DNA from: Microvirga solisilvae
Lineage (GTDB): Bacteria > Pseudomonadota > Alphaproteobacteria > Rhizobiales > Beijerinckiaceae
DNA: 64,000 nt
NCBI RefSeq assembly: GCF_022808595.1
Contig: NZ_JAKUCN010000010.1
Location: 1 to 64,000, forward strand
Direction of reading: 5' to 3'
Part shown: positions 59,050 to 63,772 of the stretch, one piece after another
Layout of the letters: the number at the start of each line of letters is the position of its first letter
Numbering within the stretch: the first letter of the stretch is position 1
Translations under genes and position numbers: made by a program
Notes under the pieces: model-generated
Databases searched by the model: none
Seen by the model: only the letters and a program-made list of their open reading frames with translations
Told to the model about the DNA's origin: nothing

Positions 59050-59286
59050 TTACAGATTCCGTTGAACGGGAGCGCTGACGCCACGCGACCAAGCCTGCAC
59101 TACCAGATGCCGCCGCAGCATCAGAGGGCATGTCACCTCGTCCTGCTGGCAGGTCGAGACGATCCCACTCAGCATCCAAGCCATATTCTGCTTCTCATGC
59201 GGCGAAGAACTCGAAGCGAGCCGCGAAAACTCGTCCGGCAACTCCTCCTGGCACAGGGCCGCATCCAATTCGTTCGTGGCAGTCAT
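59050..59286 (-). CDS. small EcfG-controlled protein, uncharacterised
   Basis: The 78-residue protein (MTATNELDAALCQEELPDEF...) is soluble and mostly helical. It has a central SPHEKQNMAWMLSGIVSTCQQ segment and three cysteines. I recognise no family. It is judged real because the ATG at 59286 has an excellent GCGGAGGCGA site and a perfect EcfG promoter ends 30 bases upstream. It leads into the uncharacterised 182-residue gene. Confidence 0.6.
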   Translation of the reverse strand: MTATNELDAALCQEELPDEFSRLASSSSPHEKQNMAWMLSGIVSTCQQDEVTCPLMLRRHLVVQAWSRGVSAPVQRNL

Positions 59287-59315
59287 CGTCGCCTCCGCAT
59301 CATTCTTGGCTTGGC

Positions 59316-59340
59316 AACGTGCCCAGAACGGCCCGGTTCC
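59316..59340 (-). promoter_or_regulatory. EcfG-type stress promoter of the 78-residue gene
   Basis: On the minus strand GGAAC (complement of 59336-59340), 16 bases, then CGTT (complement of 59316-59319). It exactly fits the consensus. Confidence 0.72.
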
Positions 59341-59406
59341 TCCACTTGGGGAAACTTCGTCCACATCTACCCAGGAAACGCTTTCGAATTTCGATGAAAA
59401 TATTTT

Positions 59407-59431
59407 GGAACCCCCTCCTGCGCTGGGCGTT
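59407..59431 (+). promoter_or_regulatory. EcfG-type stress promoter of small RNA B
   Basis: GGAAC (59407-59411), 16 bases, then CGTT (59428-59431). No open reading frame follows; a hairpin terminator ends the stretch about 80 bases later. Confidence 0.68.
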
Positions 59432-59437
59432 ATGTCA

Positions 59438-59510
59438 GCAACCGGTTCGAATGCCCCCTTGAGCCGGCACCTTACAGGGCGCAGTCATTCGTGGCTGCGC
59501 CTTTTGTTTT
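59438..59510 (+). ncRNA. candidate stress-induced small RNA B (GsrN-like)
   Basis: The predicted transcript is about 73 nt and runs from an EcfG promoter to an intrinsic terminator. The 5' hairpin pairs CCGGTTC (59442-59448) with GAGCCGG (59461-59467) and exposes a C-rich loop holding GCCCCC. The terminator stem is GGCGCAG/CTGCGCC (59478-59484 and 59495-59501), followed by TTTTGTTTT. It shares CCCCTTG and GCCGGCACCTT with small RNA A, 1.8 kb away. The role is inferred: base pairing of the C-rich loop with G-rich mRNA leaders, as known for sigma-T-dependent GsrN in Caulobacter. The exact 5' end is estimated. Confidence 0.6.
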
Positions 59511-59588
59511 GGCTATCCCCTCTTGCCCATGAAAAACGGCGCCCCGGCAGAACCGGGACGCCGCAGATCGGCAGATAAAGTGTGCCTC

Positions 59589-60372: not shown

Positions 60373-60397
60373 AACGCGCCAAACAATTGGACGTTCC
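60373..60397 (-). promoter_or_regulatory. EcfG-type stress promoter of the PRC-barrel gene
   Basis: On the minus strand GGAAC (complement of 60393-60397), 16 bases, then CGTT (complement of 60373-60376). The start codon lies 58 bases downstream. Confidence 0.75.
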
Positions 60398-60564: not shown

Positions 60565-61086
60565 CTACGAAACAGAATGCCCTAAAGAAGCAAGACACAT
60601 GCTCGGCATCCTGCCTTTGGCGGCACTTGCCAAGGGGCTGACGTCGTCAAGACAACCTACCGGGGGCTGGCGCTTGATCTTCCGCGGCTCCTCACTGCCT
60701 TCGCGCGTAATCACGGGAGGATGCTGAACGGCAGGGCTGTAGGCATCTTCCTTCACCGTCAGGACAGGAAGCTCCGTATTCTTGGAGATCGTCGTCACGC
60801 CAGAGCCCGGATCAGCCCGGTAGAGGACCTCGCCATTGCTGTCCCGAAGGATGACTGTGGCGCGGGAAAGACCGACGATCTCGACGATGGAAATGCTGGC
60901 CGGATGCTCGGCCGGCTTCGAAACTGCCAGACGGTCCCCTTTGGATGCGATACGATCCTGCAGCAAAGCATTCTTGAAGGCCTGGGAAAGCTGCGAAGCA
61001 TCAATCCCCGAATCCGCGAAAGCGATGCCCCCGGCAAGCAGGGCGGCCCCGGTCAAAACACACAATCTGGTGGCACTGAGGAGCAT
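60565..61086 (-). CDS. secreted stress-regulated protein, uncharacterised
   Basis: The 173-residue product has a signal peptide (about 1-24, ending GIAFA). A small beta-rich region (SISIVEIVGLSRATVILRDSNGEVLYRADP, then NTELPVLTV) and a Pro/Lys/Arg-rich tail with two cysteines follow. Similar proteins occur in Methylobacteriaceae-like genomes as hypothetical proteins. AGGAGG lies 7 bases before the ATG, and a perfect EcfG promoter ends 40 bases upstream. The function is unknown; a periplasmic stress role is inferred from the promoter only. Confidence 0.75.
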   Translation of the reverse strand: MLLSATRLCVLTGAALLAGGIAFADSGIDASQLSQAFKNALLQDRIASKGDRLAVSKPAEHPASISIVEIVGLSRATVILRDSNGEVLYRADPGSGVTTISKNTELPVLTVKEDAYSPAVQHPPVITREGSEEPRKIKRQPPVGCLDDVSPLASAAKGRMPSMCLASLGHSVS

Positions 61087-61125: not shown

Positions 61126-61150
61126 AACGCGACCCTATCTGTGAGGTTCC
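61126..61150 (-). promoter_or_regulatory. EcfG-type stress promoter of the 173-residue secreted-protein gene
   Basis: On the minus strand GGAAC (complement of 61146-61150), 16 bases, then CGTT (complement of 61126-61129). Confidence 0.75.
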
Positions 61151-61187: not shown

Positions 61188-61213
61188 GGAACCTTTATTT
61201 TCCAAGCGGCGTT
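61188..61213 (+). promoter_or_regulatory. EcfG-type stress promoter of small RNA A
   Basis: GGAAC (61188-61192), 17 bases, then CGTT (61210-61213). It points into a gene-free stretch that ends in a strong terminator. Confidence 0.7.
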
Positions 61214-61219
61214 CTAAAA

Positions 61220-61302
61220 GCACCGGCCTCCTGGTCCTCCCCGCATTCCCCTTGTGCATTGGCCGGCACCTTTAGACGGGCTTCGAGAGCCCGTCTTTTT
61301 TT
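61220..61302 (+). ncRNA. candidate stress-induced small RNA A (GsrN-like)
   Basis: The predicted transcript is about 83 nt and lies between an EcfG promoter and an intrinsic terminator. CCGGCC (61223-61228) pairs with GGCCGG (61261-61266) around a 32-base loop. The loop is rich in C and contains CCTCCCC and TTCCCC, which could bind Shine-Dalgarno-like GGGG/GGAG sites. The terminator is an 8-bp stem GACGGGCT/AGCCCGTC (61275-61282 and 61288-61295) with seven Ts. CCCCTTG and GCCGGCACCTT recur in small RNA B. Promoter class, C-rich loop and nearness to phyR-nepR-ecfG recall Caulobacter GsrN; homology is not proven. The exact ends are estimated. Confidence 0.65.
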
Positions 61303-61396: not shown

Positions 61397-62203
61397 TCAC
61401 GCCGTGGCAGCGCGTGCCTCGCGGCGCTTGGCGCTCTGTTGGAAGAACAGGGCTTGGCTGATCACGGCCGAGACGTTGGCCGGCTGGAACGGCTTGGCGA
61501 TGAGGAAGGCCGGCTCGGGCCGCTCACCGGTGAGGAAGCGCTCCGGATAGGCGGTGATGAAGATCACCGGTACCTCGAAAGACTTCAGCAGGTCATTGAC
61601 CGCGTCGAGACCCGAGCTGCCGTCGGCAAGCTGGATGTCGGCCAGGATCAGGCCGGGCTGCTTCGTGGTAGCGAGCTTCACGGCCTCGGTGCGCGTACGG
61701 GCGACACCCGTCACGTTGTGGCCGAGACCTTCAACAAGCGCCTCGAGATCCATGGCGATGAGCGGCTCGTCCTCAATGATGAGGATGTCGGTGGCCATGT
61801 CAGCCGCCAACTCACGGCCAGCTTCGTCCACGAGCTCGCGCACCGTCTTGGCGTCGACGTCGAGAATCTGGCCGACCTCCTCCTCCCCGAAGCCTTCAAG
61901 GCAGGAGAGCAGGAATGCTTGGCGCGGCAGCGGAGTGATCTGCCCGAGGCGAACTTCCGCCGGCAGATCGCGCTGGATCTGCTCGCTGCGTCCGTTGACG
62001 GAAAGCGAATTCCAAATGCGCGTGAAAACCTGGAAAAGCTCGACCTTGACGTTGCCGGAGGGCCCAATGGTCTCGGGCTCGCTCACGAGCGTCTCAAGGG
62101 TTGCAGCCACATAGGCGTCGCCAGCCATCTGGCTGCCTGTAAGTGCGCGTGCGTAGCGGCGAAGATACGGTAAGTGCTGGACGACAAGCTGAGCTGTCGA
62201 CAT
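61397..62203 (-). CDS. phyR: general stress response regulator PhyR
   Basis: The 268-residue anti-anti-sigma factor has an N-terminal sigma-like domain (about 1-135: QHLPYLRRYARALTGSQMAGDAYV, LPRQAFLLSCLEGFGEEEVGQIL). A C-terminal receiver domain follows (about 138-262) with the acidic pair in IIEDEP, the phospho-acceptor D189 in LILADIQL and a Lys in FLIAKPFQP. On phosphorylation the sigma-like part binds NepR and frees EcfG. The ATG at 62203 follows GGGGAAG. An EcfG promoter stands upstream, so PhyR is under feedback control. It is divergent from nepR-ecfG. Confidence 0.97.
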   Translation of the reverse strand: MSTAQLVVQHLPYLRRYARALTGSQMAGDAYVAATLETLVSEPETIGPSGNVKVELFQVFTRIWNSLSVNGRSEQIQRDLPAEVRLGQITPLPRQAFLLSCLEGFGEEEVGQILDVDAKTVRELVDEAGRELAADMATDILIIEDEPLIAMDLEALVEGLGHNVTGVARTRTEAVKLATTKQPGLILADIQLADGSSGLDAVNDLLKSFEVPVIFITAYPERFLTGERPEPAFLIAKPFQPANVSAVISQALFFQQSAKRREARAATA

Positions 62204-62252: not shown

Positions 62253-62277
62253 AACGCGGCAAAGCTGCAAAAGTTCC
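62253..62277 (-). promoter_or_regulatory. EcfG-type promoter of phyR
   Basis: On the minus strand GGAAC (complement of 62273-62277), 16 bases, then CGTT (complement of 62253-62256). Confidence 0.8.
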
Positions 62278-62282
62278 ATGCT

Positions 62283-62307
62283 GGAACCGTGTCTAACCAC
62301 AAGCGTT
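62283..62307 (+). promoter_or_regulatory. EcfG-type promoter of nepR-ecfG
   Basis: GGAAC (62283-62287), 16 bases, then CGTT (62304-62307). It lies back-to-back with the phyR promoter, with only 5 bases between them, and gives autoregulation. Confidence 0.82.
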
Positions 62308-62385
62308 ATTGCTCGAAAATGAGTATAGAGCTACTGCCAAGGTTGGCTATCCCTTAATAATAGCTGGGATGGCAAGGGGAATCAG

Positions 62386-62601
62386 ATGACAGGTGATAAG
62401 GGGAACAAGCTGCCTCGGGCGCTCCCGAGAACGTCTCTCGACGGCACGCTTGGAACCAGGGCCAAACTCGACGATGGCAGTCAGAAGCGAATCGGCGATC
62501 AATTGCGCGCCATGTACGATGAATTGATGCAGCAGCCGGTCCCGGACCGTTTCAAGGATCTGCTGGATCAGCTCGACAAGAAGAAGGCAGGGTCGCAATG
62601 A
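62386..62601 (+). CDS. nepR: anti-sigma factor NepR
   Basis: This 71-residue protein is the anti-sigma factor that holds EcfG inactive until phosphorylated PhyR binds it. The conserved core runs KRIGDQLRAMYDELMQQPVP plus DRFKDLLDQLD, the two helices that contact sigma or PhyR. The N-terminal third is disordered. AAGGGGA precedes the ATG. Its stop overlaps the ecfG start by four bases (ATGA), ensuring balanced synthesis. Confidence 0.95.
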   Translation: MTGDKGNKLPRALPRTSLDGTLGTRAKLDDGSQKRIGDQLRAMYDELMQQPVPDRFKDLLDQLDKKKAGSQ

Positions 62602-63137
62602 CCCAGGAGCCTGACCTGAGAGAGGCCTTGCTTGCCGCAGTCCCAGGCCTTCGCGCCTTCGCCATCTCTCTCGCGGGTCAGGTCGACAGGGCAGATGACC
62701 TTGTCCAAGATACTCTCCTCCGGGCTCTATCAAATCTCCATCGCTTCGAGAGAGGCACGAACCTGAACGCCTGGCTCTTTACGATCCTGCGCAATCTCTT
62801 TCATTCCGAGTATCGCAAGCGCCGCCGCGAGGTCGAGGACCCGGATGGCGTATTTGCTGGTCGCCTGAAGGTGCATCCCGAACAAGGCTCGCATTTGGAT
62901 TTCGAGGATTTCCGCTCTGCCCTCTTCGAGCTTCCCTCGGACCAGCGCGAGGCCCTGCTTCTGGTCGGTGCATCCGGCTTCTCCTACGAGGAAGCTGCCA
63001 GCATCTGTGGCTGCGCTGTCGGCACCATCAAAAGCCGGGTGAACCGTGCTCGGATCCGCCTTGCAGCCATGCTTAATGTGGAGGACGTGGACGATCTGGG
63101 CCCCGATACCATGACCCGCGCCGCCCTGCAGGGCTGA
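62598..63137 (+). CDS. ecfG: ECF sigma factor EcfG (ECF15 group)
   Basis: The 179-residue alternative sigma factor directs the general stress regulon. Region 2 includes LAGQVDRADDLVQDTLLRALSNLHRFERGTNLNAWLFTILRN, with the DDLVQDT and W-L-F-T-I-L-R-N hallmarks. Region 4 includes LPSDQREALLLVGASGFSYEEAASICGCAVGTIKSRVNRAR, with the -35-binding helix. It is translationally coupled to nepR and followed by a terminator. The cognate promoter pattern occurs ten times in the surrounding 5.4 kb. Confidence 0.96.
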   Translation: MTQEPDLREALLAAVPGLRAFAISLAGQVDRADDLVQDTLLRALSNLHRFERGTNLNAWLFTILRNLFHSEYRKRRREVEDPDGVFAGRLKVHPEQGSHLDFEDFRSALFELPSDQREALLLVGASGFSYEEAASICGCAVGTIKSRVNRARIRLAAMLNVEDVDDLGPDTMTRAALQG

Positions 63138-63422: not shown

Positions 63423-63448
63423 AACGCGAAGCGCGACTGTGAGGTTCC
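63423..63448 (-). promoter_or_regulatory. EcfG-type stress promoter of the DUF1328 gene
   Basis: On the minus strand GGAAC (complement of 63444-63448), 17 bases, then CGTT (complement of 63423-63426). Confidence 0.7.
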
Positions 63449-63517: not shown

Positions 63518-63542
63518 GGAACTCCGCTCTTCCAGGTACGTT
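63518..63542 (+). promoter_or_regulatory. EcfG-type stress promoter of the small membrane-protein gene
   Basis: GGAAC (63518-63522), 16 bases, then CGTT (63539-63542); the start codon lies 26 bases downstream. Confidence 0.74.
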
Positions 63543-63568
63543 TTTCAGAACACTTGGGAGATATGTCG

Positions 63569-63772
63569 ATGACCCGTTCCGTTGCCCTACGTGCATTTTT
63601 TCTCTTCACGATTTTGTCTATTCTCGCGGCTGCCACAGGTATGGCATCGCATTCCGATATTGCCGAAGCCATGTTCGTGATCGCTGCGTCCCTGTCGGCG
63701 GTCCTGCTGTTCTTCGCCATGACGGTTCAGACTCCGGCTCCTATTCCCGTGCGTGTGCAGCGTCGTCGCTAA
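63569..63772 (+). CDS. small stress-regulated membrane protein, uncharacterised
   Basis: The 67-residue protein has two hydrophobic helices (about residues 6-24 and 31-51) and a basic C-terminus (VRVQRRR). I recognise no family. GGGAG lies 8 bases before the ATG at 63569; an ATG at 63563 is too close to that site. A perfect EcfG promoter upstream and a hairpin terminator downstream frame it as a single-gene unit of the stress response. Confidence 0.68.
   Translation: MTRSVALRAFFLFTILSILAAATGMASHSDIAEAMFVIAASLSAVLLFFAMTVQTPAPIPVRVQRRR

Follow-up and report, generated by a model that had tools for sequence, protein, structure and literature searches.

Several small RNAs of alphaproteobacteria bear on the gene described here. 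GsrN of Caulobacter crescentus is about 100 nt long, has a C-rich loop in its 5′ hairpin and an intrinsic terminator, and is usually encoded near the phyR/nepR/sigma locus; its target in Caulobacter is katG, and the nepR and sigT mRNAs were co-purified with it, although their regulation was not demonstrated (PMC5869019). BLASTn matches to GsrN are confined to Caulobacteraceae, and GsrN-like RNAs have been predicted near the stress locus of R. etli, S. meliloti, Brucella, Bradyrhizobium and Rhodopseudomonas (PMC5869019). In R. etli, 5′ RACE has mapped the start of ReC64, an EcfG1-dependent RNA of 88 nt encoded downstream of the phyR locus (PMC3892343). EcpR1 (SmelC291), a stress-induced small RNA of Rhizobiales, represses mRNAs by base pairing and possesses an invariant GC-rich loop, UCCGCCGCAUCU (PMC4414408). 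The CCUCCUCCC-loop RNAs SmelA075 and SmelA099 (PMC3927594) and the alpha-r8/SisA-D RNAs (PMC12559287) carry a C-rich anti-Shine-Dalgarno motif, common to several siblings that are otherwise different molecules; the promoters of SisA-D are mutually unrelated.

The window analyzed here, a 64-kb stretch of Microvirga solisilvae DNA, contains 10 EcfG-type promoter sites against 0.7 expected by chance, and these cluster at the stress locus, which comprises phyR, nepR-ecfG, the PRC-barrel, DUF1328 and 173-aa protein genes and two RNA genes (Table 1). An hfq gene is present as well. Relatives of the 173-aa protein are encoded near phyR in several related genomes. The first of the RNA genes, sRNA A, is followed by phyR, which is convergent with it at a distance of 95 bp, in agreement with the placement beside phyR in the initial annotation. 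The other features claimed there for this unit were also recovered, namely an EcfG-type stress promoter, 83 bases without a convincing reading frame preceded by a ribosome-binding site, a predicted hairpin with a 32-base C-rich loop, and a terminator. There is no ATG in the 83 nt, and indels are not multiples of three. Judged from sequence, sRNA A is almost certainly a genuine RNA gene; its transcription and its targets we infer.

Table 1. Features of the stress locus in the window and plasmid or extra-copy siblings of sRNA A (folds are predicted)
Feature	Position	Strand	Details
EcfG-type promoter of ORF 59050-59364	59316-59340	-	
EcfG-type promoter of sRNA B	59407-59431	+	
sRNA B	59438-59511	+	hairpin with C-rich loop GAAUGCCCCCUUG, terminator
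EcfG-type promoter of PRC-barrel gene	60373-60397	-	
173-aa protein	60565-61086	-	no Pfam match
EcfG-type promoter of 173-aa ORF	61126-61150	-	divergent from sRNA A
EcfG-type promoter of sRNA A	61188-61213	+	GGAAC-N17-CGTT; GGAAC 61188-61192, CGTT 61210-61213
sRNA A, predicted 83-nt transcript	61220-61302	+	start ~7 nt past CGTT
sRNA A 5′ hairpin	61223-61266	+	6-bp stem CCGGCC/GGCCGG, arms 61223-61228/61261-61266; 32-nt C-rich loop 61229-61260 with 14 C
Proposed seed AUUCCCCUUG in sRNA A loop	61245-61254	+	complementary to phyR and nepR ribosome-binding sites
sRNA A intrinsic terminator	61274-61302	+	hairpin 61274-61283/61287-61296, then U-run; stem kept, loop variable
phyR, response regulator with sigma-like domain	61397-62203	-	convergent with sRNA A
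phyR Shine-Dalgarno AAGGGGAA	62208-62215	-	proposed pairing site
EcfG-type promoter of phyR	62253-62277	-	
EcfG-type promoter of nepR-ecfG	62283-62307	+	
nepR Shine-Dalgarno CAAGGGGAAU	62373-62382	+	proposed pairing site
nepR (anti-sigma) and ecfG (sigma)	62386-63137	+	overlapping reading frames
EcfG-type promoter of DUF1328 gene	63423-63448	-	
EcfG-type promoter of small membrane-like ORF 63563-63772	63518-63542	+	
C2 siblings (L308, L309, L310, L311, L312, L313, L317, L318, L319)	NZ_CP141050.1 and other Microvirga contigs		

Compared with shuffled sequences, the whole of sRNA A folds with a z-score of -3.4, to which the terminator contributes most; because the 5′ hairpin alone reaches just -1.1, folding energy by itself is no proof of this hairpin. 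The decisive evidence for the predicted 5′ hairpin is its conservation. Among 36 aligned Microvirga sequences, the stem arms are 100% and the loop 99.6% conserved, and the promoter boxes 98.9% (-35) and 97.2% (-10), with GGAAC present in all 36 and CGTT in nearly all; the values are lower for the drifting promoter spacer (72%), the upstream (57%) and downstream (67%) flanks and the terminator loop (50%), and the third codon positions of phyR, taken as a yardstick, are 70% conserved and 2.6% invariant. Promoter, RNA and terminator thus appear to form one unit under selection, with a loop that seems to tolerate hardly any change. A covariation test within sRNA A of Microvirga and Methylobacterium is uninformative because the stem is invariant, and since the loop never varies, covariation between loop and target is invisible.

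Of 37 Microvirga genomes, 36 contain sRNA A, and the one without a match is a fragmented assembly of 780 contigs. A 20-nt stretch of the loop has 37 exact matches in a collection of 84,980 species, 36 of them in Microvirga and the last in a metagenome bin that is labelled Rhizobiaceae but is Microvirga-like in sequence. The initial annotation had suggested a covariance model as a check in relatives, and such a model of the 5′ domain (R1) detects sRNA A in all eight genomes of the genus g28 and in two more genera of the same family, g157 and g170, each time with its own EcfG-type promoter and terminator. We take g28 to be Methylobacterium because a M. bullatum record (NZ_LR743510.1) shares a near-identical sRNA A unit together with its neighbors phyR (85% identical), nepR and DUF1328. 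In the checked loci of g28, g157, g170 and Microvirga, sRNA A lies directly downstream of phyR, and the stem and C-rich loop, on whose conservation the initial annotation had staked its reading beforehand, are both kept in the relatives that retain the locus. An inner hairpin (GCAU/GUGC) divides the loop in Microvirga and is not kept in g157, so the conserved feature is an open loop. A contig catalogued as viral (L332, IMGVR_UViG_3300036407_000020) bears an A-type small RNA with an EcfG promoter; this copy is probably host DNA beside a prophage. In a scan of 397 genomes across the order, none of the relatives proposed by R1 from outside Beijerinckiaceae was convincing; the weak matches elsewhere in the order were rejected as coding-like sequence without an EcfG promoter, and an order-wide search for an EcfG site combined with CCCCTTG gave no clear signal above the reversed control outside the family.

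The unit has several siblings. sRNA B, flanked by an ORF without known function and by the PRC-barrel gene, was detected by BLAST in 15 of 25 Microvirga genomes, and a B-like RNA is linked to sRNA A in g170 as well; among 12 B stem-loops, five pairs are changed on both sides and the loop GAAUGCCCCCUUG is kept. We regard B as a looser sibling of sRNA A. Type C1 (L248, L314, L315 and L239), from one 9.2-Mb Microvirga genome and from g170, has the stem CGGCCC/GGGCCG and, in the majority of copies, a CGTT -10 box. Type C2 has the stem GGACCC/GGGUCC, its own terminator, a GGAAC -35 box and an ATTA-like -10 box; it is a plasmid or extra-copy type found in at least seven Microvirga genomes, including the M. 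lotononidis megaplasmid NZ_CP141050.1, and an EcfG-like sigma factor encoded on a plasmid may recognize its promoters. A, C1 and C2 have CCCCGCAUUCCCCUUGUGC in common and differ in stems and terminators, and CCCCGCAUUCCCCUUG is the core of the seed region common to sRNA A and the C-type siblings. In a hand alignment anchored on the loop, the 6-bp stems CCGGCC, CUGGCC (as CUGGCC/GGCCAG in g157 and in siblings), CGGCCC and GGACCC differ by compensated changes, each listed element pairing in all six positions. A shared loop core on differing compensated stems implies that the stem is a scaffold and the loop the working part.

The initial annotation had proposed that this RNA is the Rhizobiales counterpart of GsrN. 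The resemblance holds for the general-stress sigma promoter, the exposed C-rich 5′ loop, the intrinsic terminator and the location next to phyR, and it does not extend to identity with GsrN. The latter has six tandem Cs, whereas the longest C run in sRNA A, whose loop is UCCUCCCCGCAUUCCCCUUG, is 4; as judged from Rfam and the published description, there is no detectable homology between the two RNAs; and Rfam searches at gathering and relaxed thresholds gave only chance matches for sRNA A and sRNA B. GsrN is processed to a stable 5′ isoform and its full-length form is stabilized by Hfq; the genome with sRNA A has hfq. This genome lacks a katG-type peroxidase, as do 33 of 38 Microvirga genomes, and katG was rejected as a target because it is mostly missing and the existing leaders lack excess pairing, so the GsrN mechanism does not carry over as such. 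sRNA A fits the ReC64 kind (an independent EcfG-type promoter, a length below ~100 nt, a position beside phyR), in a comparison with its published description. EcpR1, in contrast, belongs to the divK-pleD locus and has a sigma-70 promoter, whereas sRNA A has an EcfG-type promoter at the phyR locus and lacks UCCGCCGCAUCU. In its C-rich anti-Shine-Dalgarno motif and its motif-sharing siblings, the A family is similar to the CCUCCUCCC-loop and alpha-r8 RNAs; however, CCUCCUCCC is absent from A and B, as is the UUUCCUCCCU of alpha-r8/SisA-D, and, unlike SisA-D with their unrelated promoters, A, B and most C1 copies have the EcfG type of promoter in common. The alpha-r8/suhB-mmgR covariance model (RF00519) scores B at 15.3 bits against a cut-off of 41 and does not match A. 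A search of the GSR loci of other orders for terminator units under EcfG control yielded one unrelated candidate: on contig L214, from another alphaproteobacterial order, a C-rich RNA (~5701, minus strand) with CCCCCC and a strong terminator follows an EcfG site close to nepR and is possibly GsrN-like. Given that ReC64 is known and GsrN-like RNAs have been predicted, sRNA A represents a new family within an established kind; neither Rfam nor the literature searched contained the family, its loop, its siblings or the targets proposed for it.

As to function, we propose, at somewhat less than an even chance, that sRNA A is a trans-acting member of the EcfG regulon that provides negative feedback by pairing with phyR and nepR. 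Under stress, freed EcfG would drive synthesis of sRNA A, which, presumably together with Hfq, would pair through the loop segment AUUCCCCUUG with the Shine-Dalgarno sites of the phyR and nepR(-ecfG) mRNAs and block their translation, thereby limiting or resetting the response; other mRNAs with G-rich leaders would probably be further targets. The phyR and nepR mRNAs also have EcfG-type promoters and would hence be made together with sRNA A.

The leaders in question are AUAAGGGGAAGCGAAUG (phyR) and GGCAAGGGGAAUCAGAUG (nepR), in which AAGGGGAA of phyR is the exact complement of the loop segment UUCCCCUU and CAAGGGGAAU of nepR that of AUUCCCCUUG; both sites are predicted to be unpaired. All 34 of 34 phyR leaders contain AAGGGGA, compared with 6 (~1%) among a sample of 503 other genes, nepR being one of those 6. 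Most Microvirga and some g28 genomes have CAAGGGGA, extending up to CAAGGGGAAU, in the nepR leader, and AAGGGGA is found in most Microvirga nepR leaders and in several leaders of the other genera that possess sRNA A; it is absent from 22 of 23 phyR leaders from other alphaproteobacterial orders, L228 being the sole one examined there with CAAGGGGAAU. Among 148 sampled genes of this genome, a background that is part of the genome, one matches phyR and five match nepR in duplex strength with the loop core. Against shuffles of the longer leaders, the ranks of phyR (0.20) and nepR (0.17) are unremarkable and not significant. The pairing is short (8-11 bp) and involves ordinary functional ribosome-binding sites, the G-rich sequence of which pairs with any C-rich loop, and this counts against the proposed feedback; moreover, attention fell on these sites once tests of several other leaders had been made, and phyR leaders from orthologous genes do not count as independent evidence. 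The leaders of ecfG paralogues in Microvirga and Methylobacterium show no excess pairing with the loop, and no convincing long antisense target of the loop was found in this genome. Feedback nonetheless appears, tentatively, to be the best single mechanism for sRNA A.

An unlikely but serious alternative is a positive regulator in the manner of GsrN, which would stabilize or activate stress-defense mRNAs other than katG, with phyR and nepR as minor targets or none. Promoter class, locus and architecture are those of GsrN, which itself has many G-rich partners (PMC5869019). Yet the distribution of katG and the unexceptional pairing of its existing leaders, described above, speak against a transfer of this role, and the 29 sites inspected among 50 in the genome that lie within three mismatches of the 16-nt loop complement resemble ordinary coding sequence. 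Distinctly unlikely, in our estimate, is a broad anti-Shine-Dalgarno repressor of many mRNAs with G-rich sites, similar to the CCUCCUCCC or alpha-r8 RNAs, for which phyR and nepR would be nothing special. The A loop region does contain CCUCCUGG and UCCUCCCC, and the complement of CCAGGAGG is matched over 8 nt in several unrelated genes; however, what A and the C siblings have in common is CCCCGCAUUCCCCUUG, AAGGGGA seldom occurs at start codons, and a generic C-rich stretch would need less than an invariant loop of 32 nt. A sponge or decoy, titrating an RNA-binding protein or a second RNA instead of acting on mRNAs, would accord with several copies of the same invariant loop, some of them on plasmids, but is improbable, given that the loop lacks a GGA-type protein-binding motif and that no partner small RNA is known to us. 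Finally, the extreme sequence invariance might suggest that the unit is no RNA gene but a conserved element of the DNA or a gene for a small peptide, which is very improbable in view of the retained promoter, compensated stem and terminator amid drifting loops and spacers, the missing ATG and the indel pattern.

The feedback reading extends to the family as a whole. Microvirga, Methylobacterium and related genera may possess a set of EcfG-induced sibling RNAs in which one invariant loop is carried on interchangeable stems and feeds back on the Shine-Dalgarno sites of phyR and nepR, with extra copies and an altered -10 box on some megaplasmids, a proposition that is possible although we hold it with some doubt. 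In Methylobacterium extorquens, a main model of the PhyR stress switch, stress raises the level of the sigma-EcfG3 protein, an increase that depends on PhyR/EcfG and in which, the authors thought, a small RNA might be involved (PMC4814048). sRNA A, for which a promoter and a seed are defined, is a concrete, conserved candidate for this RNA. Should it truly pair with phyR and nepR, the locus of the alphaproteobacterial stress switch would itself encode a post-transcriptional brake on the switch.
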